A stretch of DNA of 64,000 bases from Micrococcus sp. EYE_212 (lineage in GTDB: Bacteria; Actinomycetota; Actinomycetes; Actinomycetales; Micrococcaceae). Both the position numbers and the translations under genes were made by a program. Below the pieces are notes generated by a model. The model did not search any database, had not been told where the DNA came from, and saw only the letters and a program-made list of their open reading frames with translations. Below, in pieces: positions 2,611-49,896 of this stretch. The DNA lies in the NCBI RefSeq assembly GCF_023147585.1, contig NZ_JAHXOZ010000006.1, positions 1 to 64,000 of the forward strand, in the 5' to 3' direction. Each line of letters begins with the position of its first letter. Position 1 is the stretch's first letter.

Positions 2611-2899
2611 GAGATGACCCCCTTCGCAGGGCTGCGAGCAGTATCCCTCCAGCCGCGGGCTGTGAAGTGCGGCTGTGGCAGGTGAAGTGGCCGTTCACCC
2701 TTCCGATGCGGAAACGCGACATGAGCATTCCTGCTCGACTCTCACATGTCCTCGGTGTGTCGCTCAATGGGTGCGTTGCTGGGCACAATATGCAGTTGAG
2801 GGCCTTCTCACCCTTCCTCGACAGACTCTCACTGGCACCCATTTCAGCCGCAAGAGCGCTTGGTTCGAGGCTCGCACATCAGTCACGGAGAGTTTTCTC

Positions 2900-3955: not shown

Positions 3956-4023
3956 CGCCCGGCCATGCCCGGCGCGTTGAATGAACGCGTCGGCAACGGT
4001 GTCGCCAGGTGGTCCACCCGCCG

Positions 4024-4072
4024 CCCGCATATTCTGGTCCTCTGCAGCCCGCGGAGGACCAGAATATGCGGG
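4024..4072. terminator. Bidirectional terminator-like hairpin, 19-bp perfect stem
   Basis: Arms 4024-4042 and 4054-4072 are perfectly complementary around an 11-nt loop. It sits between two convergent genes (stops at 3955 and 4127), so it probably ends both transcripts. There is no long T-tract. Confidence 0.75.
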
Positions 4073-4126
4073 GCTGTGTGCCGCCTGACGCAGGGCCGGG
4101 GTGATCTCTAGCAGCGGCGCCAGGTC

Positions 4127-5029
4127 TTAGCGTCCCGAGCGCCAGATCTTCGCCATCCTCTCCGCCGCCGCGGGGTCCACCGAGGCCCCCAGAAGCTGTC
4201 CATGCGGGGTCGGGGCAAGTCGCCGTTCGCGGTGGAACAGCTCAGAGTGGTTGATGTCCTGCACGCCGCGGTTCCACAGGTGCAGTTTGGATTCGTAGGT
4301 GAAGCTGCCCCTCATGGATGCCAGCCGCTGGGGGTCGGTGACCCAGGCGTACTTGGACGAGTCGTTGAGCTGGTGATCGACAGCGCGTGTGACGGCGGCG
4401 GCGACCCAGTCGGCGAACTGCACGTTGGAGCTCAGGGAACTGTCCACGTGCATGGGCGGTTCCACGATGCACCGCATCTCCGGAAAGTCGCCGGCTCGGC
4501 TGAAGATGTGGGCATACATCGATGCAACGCGTTCGACTCGCGTCTTCTCATTGATTTGATCGATGATCACCATGAGGTTATGTCCGTGATGGTGGGCATG
4601 GCGGGCCAGACGGTTCAGAGTCTCTCGCATGGCGTCGGCTTCGCGTTTCTCGACGTCGAGGCCGATCTGCTTGGGCGTCCCACGCTGCTTCTCGTCGGCG
4701 TAGTAGAACAGCTTGCCGCCGTGGTCGACGACGACGGACCGCACGAGCGCATCGAACACGCGGAGCTGCTGCGGAAAGCGCGCGGGGGTATCCGGCCGGA
4801 ACAGATTGGCCCCCTTGAACTCCCACCGTCCGGGGTGTTTCGCTCGGTCGATCTCCGAGGCGAACAGCTGACGCTTCAGTGCGGTGAACTTCGCTCCAAA
4901 GCCTCGTGCGGCAGACTCCGGCATGACGAATCCGGCATAACCGAAGGCTGGGCTTGTCCGGAAGCGAGGATGGTCCGGGCCGACGTAGGCGCCCGGCTCG
5001 CCGATCTCGTCGATGTACGCCAGCAGCAT
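4127..5029 (-). CDS. DUF3800 domain protein
   Basis: A 300-residue protein beginning MLLAYIDEIGEPG, the first-strand acidic motif (Asp7, Glu8) of DUF3800. A second acidic strand VIIDQ lies near residue 155 and FADWVA near 210. DUF3800 is predicted to adopt an RNase H-like fold and is frequent in mobile and defence regions, but its activity is not established. The start follows no clear Shine-Dalgarno. A short hairpin (5072-5097) lies in the sequence just upstream on its transcript. It shares the space between the two hsdM-derived repeats with the Ltp lipoprotein, but on the opposite strand. Confidence 0.85.
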   Translation of the reverse strand: MLLAYIDEIGEPGAYVGPDHPRFRTSPAFGYAGFVMPESAARGFGAKFTALKRQLFASEIDRAKHPGRWEFKGANLFRPDTPARFPQQLRVFDALVRSVVVDHGGKLFYYADEKQRGTPKQIGLDVEKREADAMRETLNRLARHAHHHGHNLMVIIDQINEKTRVERVASMYAHIFSRAGDFPEMRCIVEPPMHVDSSLSSNVQFADWVAAAVTRAVDHQLNDSSKYAWVTDPQRLASMRGSFTYESKLHLWNRGVQDINHSELFHRERRLAPTPHGQLLGASVDPAAAERMAKIWRSGR

Positions 5030-5133
5030 CTGACCATTGTGCAGGGCACAGCGGACACTGCAGACAAGCGCAGAGGCCCACGCAAGCGCGGGCCTCTCGA
5101 ATTGGTGCTCGGGGCACTGTCTCAGCCCTAGCT

Positions 5134-5190
5134 ACCACACGCGAGCGTACTCGAGCGCGCAGAGTATAGGCAAGTGTGGTTGTGTATGAT
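5134..5190 (+). promoter_or_regulatory. Putative hsdMSR promoter region with nested inverted repeats
   Basis: A TATGAT hexamer at 5185-5190 is a plausible -10 box about 77 bp before the hsdM ATG. Just upstream are nested inverted repeats, ACCACAC (5134-5140) with GTGTGGT (5174-5180) and TACTC (5148-5152) with GAGTA (5162-5166), which could be an operator or a hairpin. No controller gene is adjacent. Confidence 0.3.
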
Positions 5191-5266
5191 CCGTCGCCCT
5201 GTCGGGTCGCTGCGGGGTCGGAATGGGTCCCGTCCAGCGGCCCGCCCCCACCATTCGAAGGACCCC

Positions 5267-7267
5267 ATGACCACCCCCGCCACGCGCGGCGCTGCCTCGG
5301 CGCCCCACCGCTCTCCCCGGAACCTCTCGAACTTCGTGTGGGGGATCGCGGATCAGCTGCGGGGCGTGTTCAAGCCGAACCAGTACGGCACGCTCGTCCT
5401 TCCGCTCACCATCCTCCGCCGCATGGAGGCGGTCATGGCCCCGCACCGGGAGTTCTTCGCGGAGCTGGCGGCCAAGGGTCGTCCGGACTTCGTCCTGGAC
5501 AACCTGGTGGAGTCCCGCACGGGCCTGACGTTCTACAACCTCAGCCCCTTCACCCTGGACCGCATCCTGCAGGAGCCGGACCTGCTCCGCACCAACCTGC
5601 TGGCCTACGTGGACGGGTTCTCCCAGAACGTGGCGGACCTGTTCACCTATTACGAGTTCGACAAGACGGTCGCCAAGCTGGACGAGCACGACCGCCTCTT
5701 CCTGGTCCTGCAGCAGTTCGCCTCCATCGACCTCTCCCCGGAGATCGTCTCCAACGCGGAGATGGGCACCCTCTTCGAGGACCTGATCCGCCGCTTCGCT
5801 GCCGCCTCCAACGAGACCGCGGGCGAGCACTTCACCCCGCGCGACGCGGTGAAGCTCCTCGTGGACCTGCTCACCGCCAACGACGACCACGTCCTCACCG
5901 GCTACCCGGTCCGCACCGTCTATGACCCCACGGCGGGCACCGGCGGCATGCTGTCCCTGCTGGACGAGCGCCTGCGCCGCATGAACCCGAACGCGGAGGT
6001 CCGCCTGTTCGGGCAGGAGCTCAACGATCAGTCCTACGCGATCTGCAAGTCCGAGCTGCTGGGCAAGGGCCAGGACGCGGACGGCATCGCTCGCGGGGAC
6101 ACCCTGAAGAACGACGCCCACCTGACCGAGCGCTTCGACTACGTCCTCTCCAACCCGCCCTACGGCGGCGACTGGAAGGCCTCCCGGGCCGCAGTGGAGA
6201 AGGAGATCGCTGCCGGCGGCGCCACGAACCGCTTCCCGGGCGGCACCCCCGCCATCAGCGATGGGCAGATGCTGTTCCTCCAGCTCGTGGCCTCGAAGCT
6301 CCGCCCGGTCTCGGAGGGCGGTGGTCGGGCCGGCATCGTCCTGAACGGCTCCCCGCTGTTCACGGGTGGGGCGGGCTCGGGCCCGTCCGAGATCCGCCGT
6401 TGGCTGCTGGAGTCGGACCTGGTGGACGCGATCGTCGCGCTGCCCACGGACATGTTCTACAACACCGGCATCGCCACCTATGTGTGGGTGCTGGACAACA
6501 ACAAGTCGGCAGACCGCCGCGGCACGGTGCAGCTGATCGACGCCCGCACGTTCTTCACCAAGCTGCGGCGCAACGTGGGCTCGAAGAACAAGGAGTTGTC
6601 CAAGGCGGACCGCCAGCGCGTGCTGGACATCTACCGAGACTTCGACGCCCAGTCCGAGGACAACGCCGAGTTCTCCAAGGTCCTCACCGCGCAGGACTTC
6701 GGCTACCGGGAGATCACCGTGGAGCGCCCGCTGCAGCTGCGCTTCGAGGTGGAGGACGCCACCATCGCGGCGGCGCTGGCCACCAAGCCCGTGGACAAGC
6801 TTCCCGACGACGGTCGCTCAGCTCTCGAGGCGGCCCTCGCCTCCCTGCGTGGCCGGGTCTGGGACCACCAGCCCACCTTCGTGCTGGAACTGAAGAAGGC
6901 GTTGAAGGAGCACGGCGTGACCGCCGGCGCTCCACTGGTGAAGGCCCTGAGCGGGGCCATCGGCGTGCACGACCCCGAGGCGGAGGTGGTGACGAACACG
7001 AAGGGCGAGCCGGAGCCGGACACCTCGCTGCGCGACACCGAACTGGTGCCCTTCGGCCGGGACATCCACGAGTACTTCGAGTCCGAGGTGGCCCCACATG
7101 TGCCCGGCGCCTGGATCGACGAGTCCAAGACGAAGATCGGCTACGAGATCCCCTTCACCCGGCTCTTCTACACGTACGTGCCGCCGCGCCCACTCGAGGA
7201 GATCGACGCCGAGCTCAAGCGGCTCACCGCCGAGATCATCGAGCTGTTGCAGGAGGTCGAGCGGTGA
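5267..7267 (+). CDS. hsdM: Type I restriction-modification DNA methyltransferase subunit
   Basis: A 666-residue N6-adenine methyltransferase. After an N-terminal helical HsdM_N domain, the SAM-binding motif DPTAGTGGM lies near residue 221 and the catalytic NPPY near 296, both intact. With HsdS it forms the M2S methyltransferase that protects host DNA. The ATG at 5267 was chosen for its AAGGA ribosome site; the open frame extends 31 codons further upstream without support. Its stop overlaps the hsdS ATG (TGATG). Bases 5311-5449 are nearly identical to the remnant at 2364-2502. Confidence 0.95.
   Translation: MTTPATRGAASAPHRSPRNLSNFVWGIADQLRGVFKPNQYGTLVLPLTILRRMEAVMAPHREFFAELAAKGRPDFVLDNLVESRTGLTFYNLSPFTLDRILQEPDLLRTNLLAYVDGFSQNVADLFTYYEFDKTVAKLDEHDRLFLVLQQFASIDLSPEIVSNAEMGTLFEDLIRRFAAASNETAGEHFTPRDAVKLLVDLLTANDDHVLTGYPVRTVYDPTAGTGGMLSLLDERLRRMNPNAEVRLFGQELNDQSYAICKSELLGKGQDADGIARGDTLKNDAHLTERFDYVLSNPPYGGDWKASRAAVEKEIAAGGATNRFPGGTPAISDGQMLFLQLVASKLRPVSEGGGRAGIVLNGSPLFTGGAGSGPSEIRRWLLESDLVDAIVALPTDMFYNTGIATYVWVLDNNKSADRRGTVQLIDARTFFTKLRRNVGSKNKELSKADRQRVLDIYRDFDAQSEDNAEFSKVLTAQDFGYREITVERPLQLRFEVEDATIAAALATKPVDKLPDDGRSALEAALASLRGRVWDHQPTFVLELKKALKEHGVTAGAPLVKALSGAIGVHDPEAEVVTNTKGEPEPDTSLRDTELVPFGRDIHEYFESEVAPHVPGAWIDESKTKIGYEIPFTRLFYTYVPPRPLEEIDAELKRLTAEIIELLQEVER
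5311..5449 (+). repeat. Direct repeat copy B (inside hsdM)
   Basis: The partner of 2364-2502, about 96% identical over 139 bp, in the N-terminal coding part of intact hsdM. Confidence 0.9.
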
Positions 7268-8394
7268 TGGGGACGACGTCCCTGCGGCACCTGGTCAGAT
7301 TCGGCAACGGTTCCGACTGCAAGTCTGTCGAAGCTGCTGACGGGCCTTACCCGGTGTATGGCTCAGGTGGAGAATTCGCCCGCTCGACGGCATATCTGCA
7401 CGACGGGGAGTCAGTTTTGTTTGGCCGCAAGGGGACGGTCGATCGTCCGCTCTACGTTAACGGCCGATTCTGGACTGTGGACACCATGTACTACACAGTG
7501 CCGGGGCCTCGGGTTGAACCGCGATTTCTCTACTACTGGGCAACGACGATCCCATTCGACCTGTACTCAACCAACACCGCTCTGCCGAGTATGACCAGTG
7601 GAACTCTCGGAAGCCTGCAGTTCCCGTTGATCGGCCGCGAGCAGCAGCGACAAGTCGCAGACTACCTCGACCGCGAAACCGCCACGATCGACGCCCTGAT
7701 CGAGAAACAGGGCCAGATGAAGACTCTCCTCCTCGAACGTCGACGCACTGCGATCGACTCGTGCTTTCCCCCAGGAGCAGACACGCGTCTGAGCAACGTA
7801 TTGCAGCTTTGCCAAACCGGCCCGTTCGGAACTCAGCTGTCGGCTTCGGAGTACATAGAAGGCGGTGTCCCGGTTATCAACCCCACGCACATCGTGGGCA
7901 GCACCATCGCCCCGAATGCCGCAGTGAGCGTCACAGCTGAGAAGGCAGACGCTCTATCGAGGCATGACCTTGTTGCGGGGGACATCGTCCTGGGCCGCAA
8001 GGGCGAAGTCGACAAGTCGGCCCTCGTTTCACCTGGCCATCCACGAATGCTGCTCGGATCCGACTCCATGCTTCTGCGAGTTAACGGGGAATGTGCTGAT
8101 CCGAGGTACCTCTGGTGGTGGCTCCAATCGCCCAGCTGTCACAGCGAACTTGAACGACTCAGCGTTGGATCAACAGTGGCGGGACTCAACCAGCGCATCA
8201 TCTCCGTGCTCGCGTTGCCCAAGCCGTCCCTGAAAGAACAGCGCGAGATCGCTGACTACCTCGACGCTGAGACCGCCAAGATCGACGCGCTCATCGCCAA
8301 GGCGGAGCGGTTCATCGAGCTCGCCCAGGAGCGCCGGGCTGCGCTGATCACCGCCGCCGTCACCGGCCAGATCGAGATCCCCACGGAGGACTGA
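7267..8394 (+). CDS. hsdS: Type I restriction-modification specificity subunit
   Basis: A 375-residue protein with two target-recognition domains, each followed by the conserved coiled spacer: REQQRQVADYLDRETATIDALIEKQ near residue 125-150 and KEQREIADYLDAETAKIDALIAK near 323-348. These helices set the spacing between the two half-sites and bind HsdM. The ATG at 7267 overlaps the hsdM stop. The two recognition domains have visibly lower GC and less biased third positions than hsdM, hsdR or the spacers, as expected when recognition domains are exchanged horizontally. The target sequence cannot be read from the protein. Confidence 0.93.
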   Translation: MGTTSLRHLVRFGNGSDCKSVEAADGPYPVYGSGGEFARSTAYLHDGESVLFGRKGTVDRPLYVNGRFWTVDTMYYTVPGPRVEPRFLYYWATTIPFDLYSTNTALPSMTSGTLGSLQFPLIGREQQRQVADYLDRETATIDALIEKQGQMKTLLLERRRTAIDSCFPPGADTRLSNVLQLCQTGPFGTQLSASEYIEGGVPVINPTHIVGSTIAPNAAVSVTAEKADALSRHDLVAGDIVLGRKGEVDKSALVSPGHPRMLLGSDSMLLRVNGECADPRYLWWWLQSPSCHSELERLSVGSTVAGLNQRIISVLALPKPSLKEQREIADYLDAETAKIDALIAKAERFIELAQERRAALITAAVTGQIEIPTED

Positions 8395-8399
8395 CCGCC

Positions 8400-11300
8400 A
8401 TGGCCATCCACAACGAGAGCGAGCTCGAGACCTACATCTGCGAGTACCTGGAGAGGCACGGCTGGCTCTACTCGCCCAACGATGACGGCTACGACCGCAA
8501 GAACGCGATCTTCCCCGAGGACGTCCACGCCTGGCTGTCCGAGAACCAGCCGGAGGACTACGGGCGCATCGTCAAGGCTGACGCCCCGGCCTCTGCCCAG
8601 CAGGCACAGCGGGACCAGATCACCACCCGCCTGATCGACGTGCTGAACAAGCCGCAGGACACCGGTGTCGGCGGCACTCTCAACGTGCTTCGCAAGGGCT
8701 TCAAGGTCGGCACCTCCGCCACCCTGCGCATGGCCGAGCCGCGGCCGGCCACGAACCTGAACCCGGCCGCCGTTGCCTCCTACGAGCGCATGCGGCTGCG
8801 CGTGATGCGTCAGGTGCATTTCAACCCGGCCACCAACCAGTCCGTGGACCTGGTGCTGTTCGTCAACGGCCTGCCCGTGGCGACGATCGAGCTGAAGACC
8901 GACTCCACCCAGTCCATCGGCCACGCGAAGAAGCAGTACCGCGAGCGCAACCCGAAGGCCACACCGCTGTTCGGGTTCGGCACCCGCGCCGTGGTCCACT
9001 TCGCCGTCTCCAACCGCGAGGTCTGGATGACCACCAAGCTGGCCGGGAAGGACACCTTCTTCCTGCCCTTCAACCAAGGCGACGACGGCCACGCCGGCAA
9101 CCCGATCAACCCACACGGCGGTTCCTCCACGGCCTATCTGTGGGAACGGATTCTCCAGCGGGACACCTGGCTCGAGATCCTCCAGAAGTTCGTCTTCCTC
9201 ACGAAGGAGACCGTGGAGGACGAGCACGGCCGCTCGCGCCGGAAGTCCACGCTGATCTTCCCGCGCTTCCACCAGTGGGAGGCCGTCACGCAAATGCTCG
9301 CCGCCGTCCGTGAGGAGGGCGCCGGCAAGTCCTACCTGATCGAGCACTCCGCGGGCTCCGGCAAGACCAACACCATCGCCTGGACCGCCCACCGCCTGCT
9401 CTCCACCTACGGGGCGGACGAGCAGCGGGTGTTCGACTCGGTCATCGTGGTCACCGACCGCACCGTGCTGGACGACCAGCTCCAGGAGGCCGTCCGGCAG
9501 ATCGAGCGGACCTCCGGCACCGTGGTGGCCGTGGACCGCAAGAACCTCGGGGGAGAGGCCACCAGCAAGTCCGCCCTGGTGAAGCAGACGCTGCTGCAGG
9601 GCAACCGGATCATCGTGGTGACGCTGCAGACCTTCCCCGCCGTGCTCGAACTCCTCAAAGGTGACTCGACGCTCGCGGGCCGCACCTACGCGGTGATCGC
9701 AGACGAGGCGCACTCCTCCCAGACCGGCTCCGCCGCAGCCAAGCTCAAGCGCGTGCTCACCCCGGACGAGCAGGCCGACCTCGAAGATGGGGGCGAGGCG
9801 GACACCGAGTCCATCCTCGCCGCCGAGGTCGCCGCCACCGGACGCCCAGAGAACATCAGCTTCTTCGCCTTCACCGCCACCCCGAAGGACAAGACCCTGC
9901 AGATGTTCGGCCGCCCCTGCGGCGAGTATGACGAGAAGGGCCAGGAGATCCCGGCCTCCTTCCACCGGTACACCATGCAGCAGGCCATCGAGGAGGAGTT
10001 CATCCTCGACGTGCTGAAGAACTTCACCAACTACGGCACCGCCTTCAAACTGGCCCTGGCCGGACAGCAGGGCGAGTTCCGTCCGGAAGGCGACCGGGCC
10101 GCCGTCGGGAAGCCGACCAGCGAAGTGGACCAGACCGAGGCGAGCAAGAAGCTCATGCGGTGGGTCAAGCTGCACCCCACGAACATCGCCCAGAAGGTCA
10201 AGATCATCGTGGAGCATTTCCGCGCCAACGTGGCCGGACTGCTCGACGGGCAGGCCAAGGCCATGGTGGTCACCGACTCCCGCGCCGCCGCCGTCCGGTA
10301 CAAGCGCCAGATGGACCAGTACATCCAGGACATGGGGTACACGGACGTGGGCACCCTGGTGGCCTTCTCCGGCGAGATCACCGACGACGACTTCGGGCTC
10401 GAGAAGGTCACCGAGCGGTCCATGAACCCGTCCGTGACCGGCAACCTGGCGAAGGCGTTCGACGGGGACGGCTACCAGGTGATGATCGTGGCCAACAAGT
10501 ACCAGACCGGCTTCGACCAGCCGAAGCTCTGCGCTCTGTACGTGGACAAGAAGCTCTCCGGCGTGCTCGCCGTGCAGACGCTCTCCCGGCTGAACCGTGC
10601 GGCGCCCGGCAAGGACACCACCTACGTGCTGGACTTCGTGAACTCCGAAGACGACATCCAGGCCGCCTTCGAGCCGTACTACGCCGGAGCGAAGCTGGAG
10701 ACGGTGACGGACCCGAACCTGATCCATGATCTGGGGACGAAGCTCGACGCCGCGGGCGTGTACGACTGGGACGAGGTCGACGCGTTCGCCGACGTGTGGG
10801 TGGCATGGAAGCCGGGGAGCGGGCAGGAGGGCCTGCAGGCCGCGCTGGAGCCCGTGGCATACCGGTTCCGCAAGGAGCTGGCGCATGCGCGGATGAACCA
10901 GGACGAGACGCGCGTGAACGAACTCGTGCTGGTGCGCAAGGACATGCGGTCCTTCGTCAGCCTCTACGACTTCCTCTCCCAGATCTACGAGTTCGAGGAC
11001 ACCGAGCACTACAAGCGGGCGCTGTTCCTGCGGCACCTGGTGCAGCTCGTGGGCGATCAGCCCGGCGGTGAGGAGCTGATCGACCTGAGCGATGTGCAGC
11101 TGGTGAGCATCCGGCAGAAGGAGACGTCCTCGGGGGACATCGGGCTGACCGGCGGGGCCGCGCTGAAGGGGACCACCGCTGTGGGAGGCGGGCAGGCGCG
11201 TGAGAAGCAGCGCGGGCCGTTGGAGGAAGTGATCGAGAAGATCAACGAGATCTTCGCCGGCGAAGGCGTGGATGCCTCCCCGTCCCAGCAGGAGGCGTGG

Positions 11301-11651
11301 GTCAGTGCCCTCGTGGCGCCCCTCATGGAGGACGAGAAGCTGCTGGGGCAGGCCGGAGCAAACTCGCTGGAGCAGTTCCTCTCGAGCCCGAACCTGGAAC
11401 GGTCGGCGATGGGCGCCGTGTACGCGAACGAGGACGCCTTCGTGAAGATGACGGACATCGTGGGCAGGGGCGGGGACCCGTCCAAGATGATCGTCGCTGC
11501 CATCGGGGAGTACCTGTACTGGAAGGTGCGGAGCGAGGGGACTGGGCCGGTGGACGTTGCCGGAGGACCCGGAGAAGCGCAGTACGAGGGGGAAGGGGCG
11601 TCGTTCAGGCGCGGTGTGTCGGCCCACGCCGAGTGCAGTCAGCACCCGTAG
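8400..11651 (+). CDS. hsdR: Type I restriction endonuclease/translocase subunit
   Basis: A 1083-residue protein. An N-terminal PD-(D/E)XK nuclease region carries the catalytic ELK near residue 163. The SF2 translocase motor follows, with Walker A AGSGKT near 317, DEAH near 434 and FTATP near 490, then a helical C-terminal region. It cleaves unmethylated DNA after ATP-driven translocation as part of the R2M2S complex. It starts 6 bp after the hsdS stop, so the three genes form one operon. All key motifs are intact. Confidence 0.94.
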   Translation: MAIHNESELETYICEYLERHGWLYSPNDDGYDRKNAIFPEDVHAWLSENQPEDYGRIVKADAPASAQQAQRDQITTRLIDVLNKPQDTGVGGTLNVLRKGFKVGTSATLRMAEPRPATNLNPAAVASYERMRLRVMRQVHFNPATNQSVDLVLFVNGLPVATIELKTDSTQSIGHAKKQYRERNPKATPLFGFGTRAVVHFAVSNREVWMTTKLAGKDTFFLPFNQGDDGHAGNPINPHGGSSTAYLWERILQRDTWLEILQKFVFLTKETVEDEHGRSRRKSTLIFPRFHQWEAVTQMLAAVREEGAGKSYLIEHSAGSGKTNTIAWTAHRLLSTYGADEQRVFDSVIVVTDRTVLDDQLQEAVRQIERTSGTVVAVDRKNLGGEATSKSALVKQTLLQGNRIIVVTLQTFPAVLELLKGDSTLAGRTYAVIADEAHSSQTGSAAAKLKRVLTPDEQADLEDGGEADTESILAAEVAATGRPENISFFAFTATPKDKTLQMFGRPCGEYDEKGQEIPASFHRYTMQQAIEEEFILDVLKNFTNYGTAFKLALAGQQGEFRPEGDRAAVGKPTSEVDQTEASKKLMRWVKLHPTNIAQKVKIIVEHFRANVAGLLDGQAKAMVVTDSRAAAVRYKRQMDQYIQDMGYTDVGTLVAFSGEITDDDFGLEKVTERSMNPSVTGNLAKAFDGDGYQVMIVANKYQTGFDQPKLCALYVDKKLSGVLAVQTLSRLNRAAPGKDTTYVLDFVNSEDDIQAAFEPYYAGAKLETVTDPNLIHDLGTKLDAAGVYDWDEVDAFADVWVAWKPGSGQEGLQAALEPVAYRFRKELAHARMNQDETRVNELVLVRKDMRSFVSLYDFLSQIYEFEDTEHYKRALFLRHLVQLVGDQPGGEELIDLSDVQLVSIRQKETSSGDIGLTGGAALKGTTAVGGGQAREKQRGPLEEVIEKINEIFAGEGVDASPSQQEAWVSALVAPLMEDEKLLGQAGANSLEQFLSSPNLERSAMGAVYANEDAFVKMTDIVGRGGDPSKMIVAAIGEYLYWKVRSEGTGPVDVAGGPGEAQYEGEGASFRRGVSAHAECSQHP

Positions 11652-11744
11652 TCCTTGTTCGGTATACGTCGCGACCAATCGCTAGGGTGGTGACAGCAGT
11701 CACATAGCACTGTGCTGTGCCCGGTCACCAAGGAAACGGGAGCC

Positions 11745-14700
11745 ATGGACGCCACCTCGCAGCAGCTCACCAGGTACTATCGCGCCATTCAGACGCAGGC
11801 GAACCTGCAGGACTGCCGGTTCACCTCACGCACGCCGTTCGCCACGGTCTCCTCTGCGGACATCACCGCGGGGCGGCTGGACGAGGCGGTCACGAACGAG
11901 CTGTTCACACTGGCCAAGGCCCGCCGGGACAGGCCGCTGGACGTGACCATCTCTCTCGCCACCCTCCAGGACGGCGCCCAGGCCGAGGGGCTCGCCCTCA
12001 TCGCCGCGCAGCTGGACGCCGACGGTCGGCTCACGGCGGACCTCGGCTCGCAGGCCCCCTGGATCCCGGCGAGCCGCCTGCGCAGCTCCGGCGTCAAGGA
12101 CCGCCAGCTCATGGTGGGAACGCTCGCCGGCTTCTGGCGCTGGCGCCTCACGGAGGGCGAGGAGCGTGCCTCCCAGGCGGAGGACTTCGCGGACGTCATC
12201 GCCTACACCGAGGCCATGGTGGACGCCGTTTTCGACGCCAAGCTGATCGCCGACGGCCTCGAGGGGGAACGGCAGGCCGAACTCCACCGACCCGGTGCGG
12301 TGCCGCACACCTGCTGGCTCACCCCGGGGACCGTGATCGAGGCGAACGGCGCGATCCTGGACCTGTACCGCCACCTCGTCGAGGACGACCCGTCCCCGGC
12401 CCTCTACGAGCAGTTCGTCGCTCTCGACGGCCAGGACCGCAGCTCCGAGGACGGCATCGACGAGGACCGTGACCTCCTCTTGGAGACCGCCACCCGCGCC
12501 ACCGGCAGCATGTCCGACGGCTTCCCGCTCACCGCCTCCCAGCGCCGCGCCGTGCACGCCTTCCTCCTGGACGGCCACGGGGACGTCACCGCCGTCTCCG
12601 GTCCGCCCGGCACCGGCAAGACCACCATGCTCCAGTCCGTGGTCGCCTCGATGATCGTCACCCACTGCCTCCAAGACCGCCCGGCGCCCCTGATCATGGG
12701 CACCTCCACCAACAACCAGGCCGTCACGAACATCATCGACTCCTTCAGCTCCGTGGCGAAGGACGACGCCGGCCCCCTCGCCCGCCGGTGGCTGCCCGCC
12801 GCCACCGAGGACGGCGCGGCGGACACGCCCCTGCGCGGACTTGCCGCCTACGCCCCGTCCGGTGCCAAGGCGAAGGAGGCCCAGGCCAAGGGCTACCTGC
12901 TGGAGAACAACCGCAAGGCGGGCGTGTACACGCAGTACTCCGCCCCCGAGTACGTGAAGGCGGCCACCGCCCGCTTCCTCGCGGACCTCGGCGGCTACAT
13001 GACAGCCGCGCGCTTAGGGGCGCCCACCGACCTGGCCAAGGCCGAGGCGTTCCTCGCCAAGGCGCTCAAGCGCGTGGACCAGCGCCGCCGCGAGCTGCTC
13101 ACCGCCCGCCACGCCGCGGACGCGGCCGTCCCCGCTCCGGCCGGCCCCGGCGCGGACGTGGCAGCCCTGCGCGTCGAGATGGCTGTCCACGAGGACCGCC
13201 TGCGGTTCTGGACGTCCGTGGCCGCCGCCGGCCCCACCGACGCCATGGACGCCGAGTTCAACCATGACGACTCGGAGCCCGCCCCGGCCTTCGACTCCGT
13301 CGACGAGTTCCGTGCCTTCTACCAGAACCGCCTCGTGGAGCTGGCGGGCACGCTGGAACGGGCTGAGCGGGACCAGGCCGCGCGGGCCGGCGTCGCGCAC
13401 CAGGCCACCCTCGCCTACGGTCAGGCGGTCACCGAGCCGCTCAAGGACCTCGCGCGCCTGTGCCTGCTCACCGAGGAGCAGGTGGATCGGCTGCGCACCG
13501 CCGAGGACCTCCTCGCCCTGGACCGGGCCCTCGATGTCACCGTCCGCCACGCCGCGTTCTGGCTCGCCGTGCACCGGTACGAGGCGCAGTGGCTGACGGT
13601 GTGCACGGGGGAGGACCTGATCCCGCAGCCCGAACGCAACCGCACCACCCTGCGCTACATGGACCGGTACTGGCCGCAGGCCGCCGCCCTCACCCCGTGC
13701 TTCGTGATGACCGCCTACCAGCTGCCCAAGTACTTCAAACTGTGGGCCAAGGCCGGCGAGAAATCCGCCTACGACCTCGAACGGGCCGATCTGCTGATCG
13801 TGGACGAGGCCGGGCAGGTGGACGCCTCCCTCGGTGCCGCCGCGTTCGCCCTCGCCAAGCGCGCGCTCGTGGTCGGCGACGTGCAGCAGCTCGCCCCCGT
13901 GTGGGGCATCGACCCGGAGAGCGACCGCGTGATGGGCGAGTCCTTCGGCTTCGGGCCGGAATGGGACACTCTGGAGCGCCGCGGCCTGACGGCCTCGGAC
14001 CACTCGTCCGTGATGATGGCCGCCGCGGGCGCCTCTCGCTGGTCCTACGGCAAGGACGACGACGAGGGGCTCTTCCTCGCCGAGCACTTCCGCTGCCGCT
14101 CCGAGATCATCGAGTACTGCAACGAGCTGCTCTACAAGGGCCAGCTCGTGCCGTCGCGGCCGTCCGCCGGGTACCGGCTCGAGGGACTCGTGGAGCACCC
14201 GTTCCTCTTCCGCGAGGTGCCCGGCTCCGAGGACCGTCGGCAGGGCTCCAGTCGTGTCAACCCGACCGAGGCCGAGGCGATCGCCGCGTGGCTCGACGAG
14301 CATTGGGACCGCTTCTGCGAGGCCTACGGAGCCGCCGGTGACCCCGAAAAGGAGAAGGGCGTGTTCGGCGTGGTCACGCCGTTCGCCGCGCAGGCCCGCG
14401 TGATCCAGCAGACGCTCGGGCGGGTGCTCGGCCCGGATCGTGCCAAGCTCGTGACGGTCGGCACCGCGCACACCCTCCAGGGCGCCGAGCGCAGCATCGT
14501 GCTGTTCTCCTCCGTGTACGGGGACAACTCCGGGCAGGCGAGCTTCATCGACAACACCCTCGAGCTGATGAACGTGGCCGTCTCCCGTGCCAAGGACCTG
14601 TTCATCGTGTTCGGCGCGAAAACCCGCTGGAACGACGGCGGCCCCGTGTTCCGCCTGGTCCGCCGGATGGCCGTGAAGGACGCCCCGGCAGGGCAACCCG

Positions 14701-43817: not shown

Positions 43818-44369
43818 TCAGAGCGCGGTGAGCCCGTGGAAGAGGTTGCGATGCAGCGCCGCGGGCGGGCGGGCGTCCGTGTGGTCCGCGAAGCCGGAGA
43901 CCTCCAGCAGGGCGACGACGTGATCCCCGGCGGGCACCTCGGTGTGCAGGCTCGTCTCGAGCCACAGGGAGGACCCCTCGAGCAGGAGCGCGCCGTTCGG
44001 GCTGACGTGCACGTCGATCCCCGCGAGGCGGTCCCCGGTACGGGAGGCCAGCTGCCCGCACAGGTGCGCCTGGTCCTCCGCGAGCAGCGACACGCCGATC
44101 GACTCGGCCCGGCGCAGTCGGGGCCACGTGCGCGAGGTCAGCTGTGCGGAGAAGGAGACGAGCGCCGGCTCCCACGAGACGCCCACGCTGAAGGAGGAGG
44201 AGACCATCACCTCGGGGTGCCCGTCCACGAGGCCGGCGACGGCGACGACGCCGGTCGGGAACGCCGCCAGGCCGGGGCGCAGGCGATCGCGGGAGACGTC
44301 GGCCTGCCAGGCGGGGTGGGCGCCGGCAGGCCGGCAAGGGGCGTGGTGGTCGGTCAGGGTCAAGGTCAT
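43818..44369 (-). CDS. Flavin reductase family protein
   Basis: A 183-residue FMN-binding split-barrel protein with FPTGVVAVAGLVDGHPEVMVSSSF near residues 37-60 and VGVSWEPALVSFS following, the flavin_reduct pattern. It would reduce FMN or FAD with NAD(P)H for a partner monooxygenase. The start follows GAAGAGGACCC. A SAM-IV riboswitch in its leader suggests the partner works in methionine or organosulfur metabolism; no monooxygenase gene is adjacent, so the partner is elsewhere. Confidence 0.87.
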   Translation of the reverse strand: MTLTLTDHHAPCRPAGAHPAWQADVSRDRLRPGLAAFPTGVVAVAGLVDGHPEVMVSSSFSVGVSWEPALVSFSAQLTSRTWPRLRRAESIGVSLLAEDQAHLCGQLASRTGDRLAGIDVHVSPNGALLLEGSSLWLETSLHTEVPAGDHVVALLEVSGFADHTDARPPAALHRNLFHGLTAL

Positions 44370-44477: not shown

Positions 44478-44567
44478 GGGCCGAATCCTCACCTGGAGCA
44501 CCCCACTACTGCGTGAGAGGGTTGCCGCCCCGCCGGCCAGGGCCGTGATGACGGGGACTCGTGATTC
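44478..44567 (-). promoter_or_regulatory. SAM-IV-type S-adenosylmethionine riboswitch
   Basis: On the minus strand a P1 stem GAATC/GATTC encloses TCACGAGTCCCCG, a GC hairpin, the hallmark CGGCAACCCTC, then GTGGGGTGCTCCAGGTGAGGA. These elements and their order match the SAM-IV riboswitch of actinobacteria (the type before met genes). Downstream, GCGGATC/GATCCGC (44423-44441) and CTCCGCG/CGCGGAG (44399-44445) can form an expression-platform hairpin before the flavin reductase start. Confidence 0.82.
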
Positions 44568-44844
44568 TGGGGATCAGCCTACGGAGGGGTCCGAGGGATG
44601 GTCAAAGCGGCCCGGGGGGCGGGCGACGCGCGGGGTCACGGAGGGTGCGTCGATCGCCGGGAGGCTGAGGGGGCGGCGCAGAGAAGCTTGTTCGCGACCT
44701 GAGCTGGGGTGGAGCGAAGCATAGAAATGTGATGCTTGACACATGCTCCTGGCCGCAGTCAGGATTCAGTCATTCGAGAGGGGGGGGGAGCTCGAGACCG
44801 CGACCCGCGGCCCCCGCAGGCGGTTCTTTGGAAGGAATCGGATC
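44568..44844 (+). promoter_or_regulatory. Promoter region of the secreted-protein cluster
   Basis: No gene is supported here. A TTGACA hexamer lies at 44736-44741 and is a candidate -35 box. Around it, AAGCAT and ATGCTT form a 6-bp inverted repeat separated by 9 bp. A run of nine Gs at 44780-44788 follows, unusual as an uninterrupted tract. The ribosome site AAGGAA precedes the ATG at 44845. Confidence 0.4.
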
Positions 44845-45405
44845 ATGCGGATGGACATGAAGAAGAGGATCATGGCGGCGTCCACCGGTGCGGTGATGGC
44901 GGCGTCGCTAGCGGTGGCTCCCGTGGCGGGGGCTGCGACCGCGCCCGTGGGAGGGGAGACTGCTACCCCGGACGCGTAATGTGCCGAGGAGTACTGGACA
45001 AGCACCGCCGTGACATCGAACACGTTCAAGCAGTCGTACTCCGCCTACTCGTCAGTGTCCGGGGCTCCCGGAGTCAGGCTCACTATCGCCACCGGGCGCA
45101 CGTTCGGTGTCAGTGGCGACATCACAGGCGAACTCTCTGGCGATGTGAGCGCCATTGTCGCTGGCGTCTCCGCCAAGGTCGGGACCCGTGTGGGAGTCAG
45201 CTACTCGTCTACGAATACCTTCAGCGGTGCTTGGACCGTGCCCAGCACCTACACGAACGGTGGAAAGCTCGCCATCGGCGCCAAGCAGGCACAGGGAACA
45301 TGGAAGCGTCAGATGCTGAACCGCAGCTGCGACGTGGTCACGCTGCGCAGCGGCTCGTTCTACACCCCGTGGCAGCAGTTCTACTTCCAGCACTTCAAGC
45401 TCTGA
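44845..45405 (+). pseudogene. Secreted beta-rich protein gene with an in-frame TAA
   Basis: A good ribosome site and the ATG at 44845 start a classic Sec signal peptide (MRMDMKKRIMAASTGAVMAA, cleavage after PVAGA). After 44 codons a TAA at 44977-44979 interrupts, but the same frame continues for 141 codons to 45405. The continuation is clearly coding: it has two Cys and alternating small/hydrophobic residues (GVSGDITGELSGDVSAIVAG, then VPSTYTNGGKLAIG), like small secreted beta proteins of actinobacteria. It is probably one gene of about 186 residues with a nonsense mutation, unless the stop is read through or is a sequencing error. It heads a cluster with a lipoprotein and an ABC transporter. 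Confidence 0.72.
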
Positions 45406-45418
45406 TGCGGTGAGCGGT

Positions 45419-45449
45419 GCAGCGTCGGGCGCCGGGCGCCGGACGCTGC
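45419..45449 (+). terminator. Strong hairpin between the secreted-protein gene and the lipoprotein gene
   Basis: A 31-bp near-perfect palindrome (GCAGCGTC ... GACGCTGC, one mismatch, single-base centre) lies 14 bp after the stop. It could end or attenuate transcription, so the first gene is made in excess over the transporter. C-tracts of 7 and 9 follow at 45451-45457 and 45462-45470. Confidence 0.8.
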
Positions 45450-45486
45450 ACCCCCCCTATTCCCCCCCCCTACGGACAGGCATGTC

Positions 45487-46083
45487 ATGTTCCCTTTGTC
45501 TCCTTCACGTCGCTTGGCCGCCCTCGCCGCCGCTGTGCTCGTCGGCACGACGATCTCCGGGTGCTCCGCCTCTCAGTCCGACACTCCGACCCCCTCGGGC
45601 ACTTCCACGGCTGTCGCCAGTGCGACCCCTTCGGAGTCAGCCGCCACGAGCGGCTCGTCCGATGCCGGGGCCCAGGCCCCGAACGCGGCAGAGGCTCTCC
45701 CCGCGGCTCTGTTCGAGGAGGGGGGCATGACCCTTGAGGAGTTCGCACGTCAGAATCCGGACTCCGACTCCATCGATGTGGAGCAGGAGTCCGTCCTGGA
45801 GGAGAGGGTCGGTCGGGGCACCCAGGAGATCACGGTGGATGCCCAGAAGGGCGCGGTCCTTCGGGTCGTCCTGCTCTGCCCCTCCGATGCGACTGGCAAG
45901 ACGGACATCCACGTCTCGAGTGGCGATGGCGATGAGAAAACGTGGATGGCCGGATCGGAGGCCCTGTGCGGCGGGTGGTCCGCAGCGACGCCTCCCATAG
46001 AACAGGCCGGGCCAGTGACCTTCACGGTCACCGTGGACAATGACGAGCCCTACCGGGTGGCGTTGACGGTTCCCTCCGAATGA
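45487..46083 (+). CDS. Lipoprotein of the secreted-protein/ABC cluster
   Basis: A 198-residue lipoprotein: signal peptide MFPLSPSRRLAALAAAVLVG with lipobox TISGC near residue 26, a Ser/Thr/Ala/Pro-rich spacer to about 65, then a small domain with GGMTLEEFARQNPDSDSIDVE and a beta-rich half with two Cys (VLLCPSD, EALCGGW). No family is recognised. Its stop overlaps the permease start (ATGA). It may be an immunity or accessory factor for the secreted protein; that is inference. Confidence 0.82.
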   Translation: MFPLSPSRRLAALAAAVLVGTTISGCSASQSDTPTPSGTSTAVASATPSESAATSGSSDAGAQAPNAAEALPAALFEEGGMTLEEFARQNPDSDSIDVEQESVLEERVGRGTQEITVDAQKGAVLRVVLLCPSDATGKTDIHVSSGDGDEKTWMAGSEALCGGWSAATPPIEQAGPVTFTVTVDNDEPYRVALTVPSE

Positions 46084-49004
46084 CGTCCCGACCGCCCCAG
46101 AGCTCGCGAGTCCAGACGAGCACTGGTGAGGGTTCTCGCCGTGTAGGACCAGCCTGGCCCTCCTTCCCCGCCGTGCGGTTGCTGCGCTTGGTGGCCGGGG
46201 CGCTCGCTGTGGCCCTGGTCCTGGGCCTTGGTGTCCAGGCCCAGGCCACACAGCGGCTCAAGGCCCTCGTCGACAGCAGCTGGCGCGGGTCCTATGACCT
46301 GATCGTGTCCGCACCCGCGGCCGCACAGAGCGCGGCAGCCCTCATGGCCCCGCTGGACACGGCCGCCTGGACGAGCTCAGCCGAGCGCCTCAGCCCGGCC
46401 GATCTCGACCGCATCCGGGCGGTGCCCGGTGTCGAGGTGGCCGCCCCGCTCGGCGACGTCGGCGTGCGCAGCGTGGCCAACCAGGACGCCGTCATGATCG
46501 GCTACCCCGCGGACGGCAGCGTGGAGGGTCCCCACGCGTTCGACCTGGACGCGCGGGTGAGCACGGACGACGGACTCGGCCCGCGCCCCGTGCTCGGCAT
46601 GGACGCCACACTGATCGGCTCCTTCTCCGACGGGCCGATCGCGGACGCCCGTCCGCTGCTGGACGATCCCGCCCTCTGCGATCCGGCCCCTCCCGAGCCA
46701 GGCCCCTGCACGGACGTCGAGCTCCCCACCCTTGCCGTCGGTCCCCGCGGTCAGACGCCTCCGCCCGCCCAGCGTGAGGTCCCGGCCGGCACGTACTGGG
46801 CCGCCCCGTGGGCGGACCCCGACCCGCAGGGCAATCGGATGATCGTGGTGGACGCCGCGGCTGAGGCGCAGCTGTTGTCCCTCGGCGGGCACCCCGCCGC
46901 CGCCGACGCGTTCCGCGTGCTAGCGCAGTCCTCGCCCGCCGGCTTCCTCCCGGCTGTCGTCGACAGGCTCTCCGGCGCCGCAACCGAGGAGGCTGAGGCG
47001 CTCGTCAGGGCGAAGGATCGGCTCCCTGCCTACCTCCAGAGCCTGGCGGATGCGGCCGGACGGCCGGTGGACTCACTCACCGCCGTCCCGCTGCTCGCCA
47101 CGAGCGTCGGGTCTGCGCCCCTGACCCTCGAGGTGCGCGCGGCCCCGTACCGGGAGCCGGTCACCCGGCTCGACATCGAGCAGGCGCCGGTGGATCCGCG
47201 GGACCCCACCGCGCCCCGCGGCATCGTGGGGATGCCCGTGTGGGCGCTGCCCGCCGGCGGGACAGCGACGCAGGACGAGGTCTCCACCTCCGACGTCTCA
47301 GGCCGGTTCGGCGGCCTGGGGCTCGGGGTCACCGTGGTCCCCGTGCCGGGGTTGACCACGGGCCGGGACCCGGTCCTGAGCTACGACTCGCCCCGCCTGT
47401 CCCTGGTGCAGGAGACGCGGACCCTGACCCGGCCGGCGTCTGCGGACGAGCCCCTGGCCGAGGCCGCCTCCGTGGAGACCGCCTCCGGCACGCTCCCCGG
47501 CCGGCCCGACGTCGCGGTCACCCGGGCGCTGCCGGCCTCCACGTCCCGGGAGTCCGCGTACTACACGGCCACTGACGATGGCCGACGGTTCGGAACCGGG
47601 GACGCGCCCCTGCTGGTCAGCGTGGGTACCCTTACGCCGGAGCCGGACGCCGCACTCGCGGGGATCGCCCCGCTGCTCACGGATGTCGAGCTGCCCACCA
47701 CCCTGGTAGCGGACCCCGACGGAACTCCGCGGGACGTCCGGCTGCGGCCCGCCTCCACCGGGTTCGGTCTCGCCAACCAGATGCCCGCCGCCTACGTCGA
47801 CGCCGCCTCCGCGGGGGCACTCGGACTGGAGCGGCCCTTCAGCACCGTCCGCGTCCGGGTGGCCGGTGTGGGGGAGGACCTGACGCCGGAGAACCTCGCG
47901 ACGATCGACGCCGTCGCCCAGCGCCTCGAGGCCGCCGGGTTCGCAGCGGTCACCGTGGCCGCCTCCAGCCTGGCGCCCCGCGAGATGCAGGTGGTGTCCT
48001 ACCGGTTCGACTCCACGGAGGGTGATCCCCGGACGGGGCCGCTCGGCACCGTGCGCCAGCTCGGCCCGGAGCTCGCCGCGTCTCAGCGGGTCTCCGCGGC
48101 CGTCGGGACCGCGGGGACCTCGCAGACGGTGACGGTGGTCGTCCTGCTGACCGCCCTGGCGGGGCTGTGCGTGGCCGCCGCGCTGCAGCCACGGCGCCAC
48201 CGGGCGGGTGTGCTGGCGGTCCATGGGTGGACACGCAGCGCCACCGTGACCCGCCACCTCCGCGAGGACGCCGCCACACTGACGGTGCTCGTCGGTGCGG
48301 CAGCCGCACTCGCCGTCGTCGGCACGATGTCCAGGAGCCTCGGCGTGGCGCCCCCGTTGGTGGCCGTGGGCCTCGGGGCGACGGCGGGGCTGGCCGGGGC
48401 CGTGGTGCTTGCGGCGGTGCTCGCGGCCCGCCCCGCCGCGTCGGCAGGTCGGGAGGGGAGCGTCGGCACGGCCCGACCGGCCCGCACCCCGGCGGCGCTG
48501 CTGACCCGGTGGACCGCGCGCACGTGGCCGCGGCTGCTCACCGGCGCGGCATACCGAGCGGCCGTGGCAGCCGGTGCCGGCCTGCTCGTGGCCGTCGTCC
48601 TGCAGGCCCGCCGCGAGGCCGGCGTCTCCGTGCTGGCCAGCGCCGCCGTGGCCCAGGACCTGCCGTTCCGCCTGGTGCTGGGTGCGCTGGCCGCCGTCGT
48701 GGGGATGGTCCTCCTGGTGCAGCTGCACCGGGTGGAGGGCCCGGACGTCCGGGGGGAGGCCACCGTGCTCCTGCTCGCCGGCTGGACCCGTTCCCGGCTG
48801 CTGGGACGCCACGTGCCCGCCCTGGCCGTGGAAGCAATCGCGGTCGCGGTGGTGGCCGGCGTCGTCCTGGCGCTGCTCACCCCCCGCCCGGACCTTCCCC
48901 TCGTGGCGGGAGCGGCCGGCGTCGCCCTGCTCCTCACCCTCGTTATCACCCTGCTCACCCGGCGAGCCCAGCTCGCCCGCGCCTGGAAGGGGCAGCCCGC
49001 ATGA
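46080..49004 (+). CDS. Large FtsX-like ABC transporter permease
   Basis: A 974-residue membrane protein. TM1 lies near residues 35-52 (LLRLVAGALAVALVLGLGV), followed by a very large extracytoplasmic region of about 600 residues with internal repeats of beta-rich segments. Six or so transmembrane segments crowd the last 290 residues (VTVVVLLTALAGLCVAAAL, VGAAAALAVVG, VVLAAVLAA, LVLGALAAVVGMVLLVQL, VAVVAGVVLALL, GVALLLTLVITLL). This resembles permeases of the MacB/FtsX type and the large membrane proteins of bacteriocin loci. It is coupled to genes on both sides by ATGA overlaps. Whether it exports or gives immunity is unknown. Confidence 0.8.
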   Translation: MTSRPPQSSRVQTSTGEGSRRVGPAWPSFPAVRLLRLVAGALAVALVLGLGVQAQATQRLKALVDSSWRGSYDLIVSAPAAAQSAAALMAPLDTAAWTSSAERLSPADLDRIRAVPGVEVAAPLGDVGVRSVANQDAVMIGYPADGSVEGPHAFDLDARVSTDDGLGPRPVLGMDATLIGSFSDGPIADARPLLDDPALCDPAPPEPGPCTDVELPTLAVGPRGQTPPPAQREVPAGTYWAAPWADPDPQGNRMIVVDAAAEAQLLSLGGHPAAADAFRVLAQSSPAGFLPAVVDRLSGAATEEAEALVRAKDRLPAYLQSLADAAGRPVDSLTAVPLLATSVGSAPLTLEVRAAPYREPVTRLDIEQAPVDPRDPTAPRGIVGMPVWALPAGGTATQDEVSTSDVSGRFGGLGLGVTVVPVPGLTTGRDPVLSYDSPRLSLVQETRTLTRPASADEPLAEAASVETASGTLPGRPDVAVTRALPASTSRESAYYTATDDGRRFGTGDAPLLVSVGTLTPEPDAALAGIAPLLTDVELPTTLVADPDGTPRDVRLRPASTGFGLANQMPAAYVDAASAGALGLERPFSTVRVRVAGVGEDLTPENLATIDAVAQRLEAAGFAAVTVAASSLAPREMQVVSYRFDSTEGDPRTGPLGTVRQLGPELAASQRVSAAVGTAGTSQTVTVVVLLTALAGLCVAAALQPRRHRAGVLAVHGWTRSATVTRHLREDAATLTVLVGAAAALAVVGTMSRSLGVAPPLVAVGLGATAGLAGAVVLAAVLAARPAASAGREGSVGTARPARTPAALLTRWTARTWPRLLTGAAYRAAVAAGAGLLVAVVLQARREAGVSVLASAAVAQDLPFRLVLGALAAVVGMVLLVQLHRVEGPDVRGEATVLLLAGWTRSRLLGRHVPALAVEAIAVAVVAGVVLALLTPRPDLPLVAGAAGVALLLTLVITLLTRRAQLARAWKGQPA

Positions 49005-49696
49005 GTGTGATCGCGCCCGTGCTCACCCTCGACCGCGTCCAGGTCGGCTACCGCCATCCCGACGGCGGCACCCGCGTGCTCGTCGAGTCCCTGGACTTGA
49101 CCCTTGCCCCCGGCGACGTCGTCGGACTCTGGGGCCGCTCCGGCACGGGGAAGTCCTCCCTGATCCGCCACCTGGCCGGGCTGTCCCGCCCGCTGTCCGG
49201 ACGGATCATCTACCGCAGCCCCGACGGATCGCTGGCCGGGGAGGTCGCGGACCTCTCGGCCGGGGATCTCGCGCGGTACCGGCGGGTGCACCTGGGCTAC
49301 GTGGACCAGTCCTGCGAGCTCATCGGCGAGCTCTCCGCGCTCGACAACGCGGGTGTGTGGATCCACGGCGGGCGCCTCGCGGGGTCTGTGCCCGAGGCAC
49401 AGCAGACGGTCCGGGGCCAGCTCGAGCGACTCGGACTGGGGCACCGGCTCGGCGCGCCCGCCTCCCGGCTGTCCGGGGGCGAAGCCCAGCGGGTGGCGCT
49501 GGTCAGGGCCCTCTCCAAGCGGCCGCACCTGATCGTGGCCGACGAGCCCACCGGCCACCTCGACGGCTCTGCGGCCCGCGAGGCCATCGCGCTGCTGCGC
49601 GAGCACGCCGCGGCCGGGGCCGCTGTACTCGTGGCCAGCCACGACCCTCTAGTCCACGCAGCCGTCGACCGGGCCGTCCGCGTCGGCGAGGACTGA
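49001..49696 (+). CDS. ABC transporter ATP-binding protein (LolD/MacB-like)
   Basis: A 231-residue ATPase with Walker A GRSGTGKSS near residue 46, signature LSGGEAQR near 158, Walker B LIVADEP near 178 and switch His in ASHD near 213. The Q-loop reads GYVDQS. The insert HLDGSAAREAIALL fits the LolD/FtsE class that works with FtsX-type permeases. The ATG overlaps the permease stop by 4 bp. It powers the adjacent 974-residue permease. Confidence 0.92.
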   Translation: MSVIAPVLTLDRVQVGYRHPDGGTRVLVESLDLTLAPGDVVGLWGRSGTGKSSLIRHLAGLSRPLSGRIIYRSPDGSLAGEVADLSAGDLARYRRVHLGYVDQSCELIGELSALDNAGVWIHGGRLAGSVPEAQQTVRGQLERLGLGHRLGAPASRLSGGEAQRVALVRALSKRPHLIVADEPTGHLDGSAAREAIALLREHAAAGAAVLVASHDPLVHAAVDRAVRVGED

Positions 49697-49725
49697 CCCC
49701 GATCGCATCGACAGAGGAGCGTTCC

Positions 49726-49896
49726 ATACCCCGCACCATCTCCACACCTCCGCTCTCACTCCCCTGCACCCGCTCGAACACGCTCGACGCGGTCCTCGCC
49801 GTCGCTGCCCTGACGGTGTCGGCCTGCGCGAGCGAGAGGGAGGGACCCCGTCCGGTCACCTCCGCCCACGTCCAGGCCGTGGGGAAGGACGACTGA
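49726..49896 (+). CDS. Possible tiny lipoprotein with ATA in place of a start codon
   Basis: GAGGAG, a strong Shine-Dalgarno, is followed 6 bp later by ATA rather than ATG. It begins a 56-codon frame with a hydrophobic segment and lipobox-like LTVSAC near residue 36, then a short polar tail. Gene position and ribosome site suggest a real final gene of the cluster whose start has mutated. No alternative start precedes the hydrophobic segment in frame, so expression is doubtful. Confidence 0.35.
   Translation: MPRTISTPPLSLPCTRSNTLDAVLAVAALTVSACASEREGPRPVTSAHVQAVGKDD

Follow-up and report, generated by a model that had tools for sequence, protein, structure and literature searches.

Loci of the lactococcin 972 type hold, in outline, a secreted precursor, a large membrane protein and an ABC ATPase. 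Self-protection against nisin has been described as two cooperating layers, the lipoprotein NisI and the ABC transporter NisFEG (PMC8538875). Lcn972 itself is described as non-pore-forming (PMC9964109). TMcin bacteriocins, a transmembrane-helix class (PMC12328743), were considered for comparison and rejected.

Here we analysed a window, the whole stretch of 64,000 nucleotides (G+C 0.72) taken from a 2.54-Mb Micrococcus genome that is 99.99% complete. Between genes for a flavin reductase and an S4-domain protein, the window holds, in order, a precursor gene split in two, a hairpin, and genes for a lipoprotein, a permease of 974 aa and an ABC ATPase. A search of open-access papers found no description of this locus. 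The best explanation that we can offer is a toxin–immunity locus of the bacteriocin kind, to which, judging from the sequences, we give a probability of about one half.

Layout of the locus and state of its genes

The features, with positions in the window, are as follows.

43818..44369, minus strand: flavin reductase (PF01613), bordering the variable site on the left
44845..44979, plus strand: precursor, signal-peptide part, up to and including an in-frame TAA; open in genomes G008, G007 and G006
44980..45405, plus strand: interrupted precursor, mature part of 141 codons, beginning CAEEYW; secreted family, profile with a CEL-III-like segment
45411..45455, plus strand: conserved hairpin separating precursor from lipoprotein; T-run terminator not found
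45487..46083, plus strand: lipoprotein, 198 aa, proposed immunity protein; open from ATG to stop
46080..49004, plus strand: permease, 974 aa, eight predicted membrane segments, domain of about 630 aa after the first
49001..49696, plus strand: ABC ATPase, 231 aa; open from ATG to stop
49726..49896, plus strand: tiny lipoprotein, a remnant lacking a standard start codon
49919..50314, minus strand: S4-domain protein (PF01479), bordering the variable site on the right

The gene order and positions given in the initial annotation stood, as did the ATGA junctions that it had reported between lipoprotein and permease (46080-46083) and between permease and ATPase (49001-49004). The tiny lipoprotein that it had listed as a gene has no usable start: no ATG, GTG or TTG is available in the window or in G008, an ATG-started copy occurs in G007 only among five genomes, and the sequence is missing from G003 and G006. 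The precursor is interrupted by an in-frame TAA (44977-44979), which splits the signal-peptide part from the 141-codon mature part. The lipoprotein, permease and ATPase are each open from ATG to stop. The strong hairpin of the initial annotation proved real, with z scores of −2.0 to −5.1 in five genomes, and 6 of its 17 pairs had at least one sequence with both sides changed. Neither a sigma-70 promoter nor a T-run terminator was found in 44550-45500. The G+C contents of the mature precursor (0.62) and the lipoprotein (0.67) are both below that of the permease (0.76), and lipoproteins occurring without a precursor have host-like values (0.70–0.78). This base composition fits a later arrival of the putative toxin part and a long residence of the lone lipoproteins, and proves neither.

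Intact precursors exist elsewhere, as had been hinted: the gene is open in G008, which belongs to the same species, and in G007 and G006. In G003, a tandem duplication of 17 bp within the signal region puts the gene out of frame (L014, 2560-2720); changes of this type can come and go by slippage. Purifying selection on the mature precursor is strong, with dN/dS values of 0.05–0.12 in seven pairs with G007 or G006 (dS being saturated, at about 2, in the pairs of G006 with the window, G008 and G003); the values for the lipoprotein, permease and ATPase were 0.22–0.28, 0.19–0.24 and 0.17–0.24, respectively. Between the window and G003 the ratio was 0.18 for the precursor and 0.83 for the lipoprotein (three synonymous and seven other changes), the closest pairs having too few changes for judging dN/dS.

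None of the precursor family members scanned matched a Pfam or NCBIfam model above cut-off, and the mature window precursor had no Pfam match at E ≤ 1. The lipoproteins, from the window and related, likewise matched no Pfam or NCBIfam family above cut-off; when their profile was compared with solved structures, 22 of the 23 matches listed fell in the signal and linker region. Cys 26, 131 and 161 of the lipoprotein are invariant in 11 aligned relatives. The best candidate for a described family of either protein, DUF6060, reached E 0.0012–0.0022 with the Arthrobacter echini protein, below cut-off, and was rejected.

Among 13 precursor–lipoprotein pairs, the precursor was broken in five (window, G003, G222, G583:C4 and G433). 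Its signal part is out of frame in G222, a frame problem that could be an assembly error; G583:C4 has an internal stop, and the 5′ part is missing in G433. The lipoprotein was broken only in G583:C4, where the precursor was broken too. Pairs that had lost one gene alone had always lost the precursor (four versus zero; two-sided p = 0.125), an asymmetry that a toxin and its immunity gene would show and that is suggestive, not significant. No internal stop was found in the lipoprotein, permease or ATPase of the five genus genomes, a count that leaves out the G007 permease start and its junction with the lipoprotein.

The ATPase belongs to the ABC class, as annotated (PF00005, 92 bits against a cut-off of 25), and Walker A, signature and Walker B motifs are present. 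The permease has the annotated length of 974 residues and eight predicted membrane segments, with a domain of about 630 aa between the first and the second; it gave no Pfam or NCBIfam match at E ≤ 1, and its profile matched no solved structure at E ≤ 0.01. The earlier label "FtsX-like" comes down to this topology and to one of two distant relatives, whose FtsX score was 20.4 bits against a cut-off of 25.5. No match above cut-off linked the window and related lipoproteins or the window permease to a known lantibiotic immunity family.

Three family tests placed the locus outside the lactococcin 972 family, in agreement with the initial annotation, which had set the precursor apart from it. With TIGR03608, the window ATPase scored 119.9 bits (cut-off 254.85), and LolD scored higher, at 128.6 bits. 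TIGR01654 (bact_immun_7tm) was found in none of the 11 genus genomes, the control being positive in Lactococcus lactis, and PF09683 had no match at E ≤ 0.1 in the same 11 genomes, with a weak control (0 of 14 above cut-off, Caulobacter sub-threshold). With TIGR03608, TIGR01654 and PF09683 all failing, membership was rejected. A lactococcin 972-type locus, in which a beta-sandwich bacteriocin would bind lipid II and a membrane protein and ATPase would give immunity, could account for a gene order that is alike in outline and for the E value of the ATPase with TIGR03608 (1e-34); the failure of all three tests and the description of Lcn972 as non-pore-forming (PMC9964109) make it very improbable.

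Distribution of precursor, lipoprotein and transporter

We searched 295 sampled genomes of the family, Micrococcaceae, with the precursor profile and obtained eight positives, namely the five genus genomes and G222, G160 and G133. In the latter three, the lipoprotein lies directly upstream of the precursor, and the permease profile matched none of them. An order-level search of 396 genomes was positive in 10, yielding nine new precursor loci, five of them with an adjacent lipoprotein (G583:C4, G433, G583:C30, G491 and G445). A scan of named genomes gave 15 precursor loci, comprising three duplicates of known ones, one in Terrabacter and 11 outside Micrococcales. Counting the 17 loci from the family and order searches together with Terrabacter, 13 of 18 Micrococcales loci have the lipoprotein directly beside the precursor, upstream in some and downstream in others; no convincing adjacent lipoprotein was seen in G368, G540, G458, G587 or Terrabacter. 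None of the 11 loci from other orders had one either (Actinosynnema, Prauserella, Amycolatopsis and Allokutzneria, of the Pseudonocardiales, the order being checked for Amycolatopsis). At the phylum level, the profile matched 8 of 396 genomes, the window's own included, and the seven further genomes were left out of the pair counts. When genome contigs were scanned with the single window precursor, 0 of 97 candidates were confirmed.

Several loci differ in arrangement. In G587 (L100, reoriented, 7162-13977), a precursor relative without a lipoprotein has an unrelated gene next to it; beyond this, genes for two ATPases and for two large permeases of 831 and 541 aa lie on the opposite strand, from about 0.9 kb away. 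Solo secreted proteins with a FAKA motif recur in Amycolatopsis (L108-L113, L115 and L117) with no lipoprotein neighbour, and these may differ in role. Allokutzneria carries two tandem copies of such a solo protein (L114, 5827-6345 and 6480-7013), the second without FAKA.

Strong full-length lipoprotein matches (E < 1e-30), the only ones counted, were obtained in 13 of 295 family genomes: all eight precursor genomes and five others with no precursor match, three of which hold it at the window's own site. Because the profile was built with rows from ten of these 13, the independent finds are G003, G008 and G173 only. At E ≤ 1e-5, the profile matched 160 of 295 genomes; among the matches listed, most cover the signal and linker only, and those in G132 and G171 cover only the C-terminal half. 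At the window's site, a lipoprotein replaces the whole operon in G004, G009 and G002 (E 4e-24, 7e-20 and 1e-12, respectively, against the window protein). The lipoprotein of G010 lies on the other side of the S4 gene (E 5e-24 against the window protein), and G001 and G005 have neither a strong lipoprotein match nor an orthologous site. A second site, at aspS, holds a lipoprotein and a broken precursor in G222 and a lipoprotein only in G173, with flanks that are 84% identical over 4.4 kb. Such lipoproteins without a precursor are more telling than the loss asymmetry.

Weaker full-length lipoprotein matches were found in G006:C27, G146, G191, G209, G269 and G037, with no significant precursor match nearby (best profile matches 0.058 and 0.064). 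The second, distant lipoprotein relative of G006 lies elsewhere in the genome and has an internal stop (L125, 3619-4203), and G209 carries several related lipoprotein genes in tandem with no detectable precursor (L127, 2797-4896).

In Arthrobacter echini (G160), a 3589-bp contig carries the lipoprotein–precursor pair with genes for a relaxase (PF03432, 61.1 bits, cut-off 24.6) and a NikA-like/MobC protein, and the pair therefore looks mobile. The contig ends do not overlap, so its plasmid nature rests on the mobilisation genes. Neither the precursor nor the lipoprotein of A. echini matched a plasmid in PLSDB.

Across the 11 genus genomes, the precursor is present in five and a close permease in exactly the same five, all at the same site; a distant permease relative was additionally found in G010. 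The permease profile matched 43 of 295 family genomes, and 38 of the 43 have no precursor match. Thus, the ABC pair appears to have been recruited and is not diagnostic. The initial annotation had proposed a bacteriocin-type system, which stays the best reading, and had put its emphasis on the permease and ATPase, which these 38 genomes and the three family loci outside the genus that pair precursor with lipoprotein, with no permease match, show to be misplaced. It had also named permease and ATPase homologues always found without the secreted protein as a result that would count against the proposal; 5 of the 11 genus genomes hold both. Taken together, the sequences suggest that precursor and lipoprotein form the core and that the ABC transporter was added in this genus.

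Among the loci listed (L051-L077, for example L051 and L073), most have a permease of 910–930 aa and an ATPase between serA-like and metG-like genes, with no secreted partner; judging from their sequences, we take the neighbourhood genes, which recur in many Micrococcaceae, to be ilv, serA and metG. In G010 (L017), a 144-aa secreted protein of no family (6857-7291, plus strand) is divergent to a related permease–ATPase–lipoprotein set (3970-6714, 3227-3901 and 2721-3230, minus strand). This set hints that the same protective module can possibly serve another precursor.

The ABC pair could instead be a general antibiotic or envelope-stress pump standing beside the precursor by chance, as the 38 of 43 permease genomes without a precursor match and the ilv-serA-metG surroundings of most listed loci would allow. 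We consider this improbable, given that the close permease occurs in exactly the five precursor genomes of 11 and that its gene overlaps that of the lipoprotein in the window. Under another reading, which involves no killing, the precursor would be a secreted protein with a surface or signalling role and the lipoprotein its receptor; the ABC pair would sense or process the secreted protein, and the lipoprotein might have a function of its own. Strong purifying selection, the conserved operon and the lipoproteins found alone in several genomes agree with such a signal pair, for which it would nevertheless be unusual that four pairs have separately lost just the precursor and that one pair lies beside mobilisation genes. 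It also leaves the CEL-III-like profile segment unexplained, and we rate it as rather unlikely.

Profile resemblance to CEL-III

Comparison with solved structures matched the precursor family to the haemolytic lectin CEL-III, at E 2.1e-5 with profile A6 (10 rows) and E 0.0015 with profile A8 (16 rows). Profile A12 (19 rows), whose rows overlap those of A6 and A8, matched CEL-III at E 1.9e-5; its matches also included two chains with the name "Toxin" (1.8e-4 and 2.7e-4). The CEL-III match spans about 55 residues (chain 1vcl, 308-364), a stretch that includes EKGVIFAKATVSVKVT and that is presumably the portion of CEL-III turning into the pore barrel. EKGVIFAKATVSVKVT resembles the EAGVIFAKASVSLxVT of many members, with EKGVIFAKA in CEL-III standing against EAGVIFAKA in many FAKA-bearing family rows. 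The FAKA motif is present in 11 of the 19 A12 rows and absent from the window, G006 and A. echini proteins.

As single sequences, the window and A. echini precursors gave no match to CEL-III, and the best structure match of the window precursor alone was a phage tail needle (E 0.021). A reversed control profile, made from 7 of the 16 A8 rows and incompletely matched to A6 or A12, matched an insecticidal protein (0.024) and a ribosomal protein (1.3) and did not match CEL-III. Other pore formers and phage spikes gave weaker matches (0.01–5). Because the reversed control reached 0.024 and phage spikes scored 0.01–0.035 in the broad profile A12, we ascribe the weaker matches to a general alternating pattern. 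For alternating hydrophobicity in 25 proteins, the observed value was reached by 9 to 327 of 1000 shuffles; it was mostly not beyond the shuffles, and the alternation therefore gives no support for a pore. Our preferred reading is a small bacteriocin that forms beta pores, and we hold it with less confidence than the bacteriocin assignment itself.

The CEL-III resemblance also raises the prospect of a membrane-active protein directed at eukaryotes (amoebae, nematodes or fungi), as CEL-III acts on animal cells, with the lipoprotein as carrier, anchor or self-protection. The best profile relatives do include proteins acting on animal cells, and Amycolatopsis has many family members that lack a neighbouring lipoprotein. 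We nonetheless hold a eukaryotic target to be unlikely: self-immunity accounts better for the lipoproteins without a precursor, for a lipoprotein in every one of the eight precursor genomes in the family sample, and for the pair found next to mobilisation genes.

Proposed mechanism and comparison with known systems

The sequences directly show the order and overlaps of the genes, the lesions, the co-occurrence, the lipoproteins lacking a precursor, the selection on the mature precursor and the profile match. For the bacteriocin-kind toxin–immunity locus, we infer secretion, toxicity, pore formation, immunity, pump function and hairpin function in the following way. The precursor would be exported by the Sec route and its signal peptide removed, and the mature protein of about 140 residues would attack the membranes of related Gram-positive cells, most likely through a small beta-barrel pore built, as in CEL-III, from amphipathic hairpins. 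The lipoprotein, on the outer face of the producer membrane, would block or sequester the toxin. In this genus, the permease–ATPase pair with its large outside domain may act as a second layer that clears the membrane of toxin, in the manner of NisFEG alongside NisI. The hairpin that follows the precursor probably keeps the level of precursor mRNA higher than that of the immunity mRNA. With its toxin apparently gone and its protective genes retained, the window strain would be immune without being a producer.

Tentatively, and with more doubt than for the bacteriocin reading as such, we propose that a compact CEL-III-like beta-pore protein serves Actinobacteria as a bacteriocin, that a surface lipoprotein dedicated to it, carrying two additional conserved cysteines, neutralises it and persists as an orphan immunity gene, and that a giant-ectodomain ABC transporter serves as an added extraction layer in one genus. 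If true, this would constitute a new class of small protein bacteriocins in Actinobacteria, with a family profile like that of an animal haemolysin and an immunity lipoprotein that is easily searched; immunity genes left alone at fixed sites would make the arms race readable from genomes.

Compared with known systems, the locus shares the outline of its gene order with lactococcin 972 loci, whereas it has no defining family above cut-off, an extra lipoprotein and another permease. Like MacB, LolCDE and FtsX-type transporters, it has a large domain after the first permease helix and an ATPase with LolD and FtsE scores of 128.6 and 125.7 bits, both below cut-off; unlike them, its permease has eight predicted segments in one 974-aa chain and no FtsX match. 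CEL-III and the precursor family are linked by the profile match of about 55 residues (1vcl 308-364) and by a FAKA motif in 11 of 19 family rows, but the precursor is bacterial and far shorter, with no lectin domains seen, and the window protein lacks FAKA and gives no CEL-III match by itself. Although the agent here would be a protein of about 140 residues and no modification enzyme is found among the eight window genes scanned, the arrangement would be analogous to NisI and NisFEG, with a lipoprotein and an ABC pair beside a putatively secreted, membrane-active agent.
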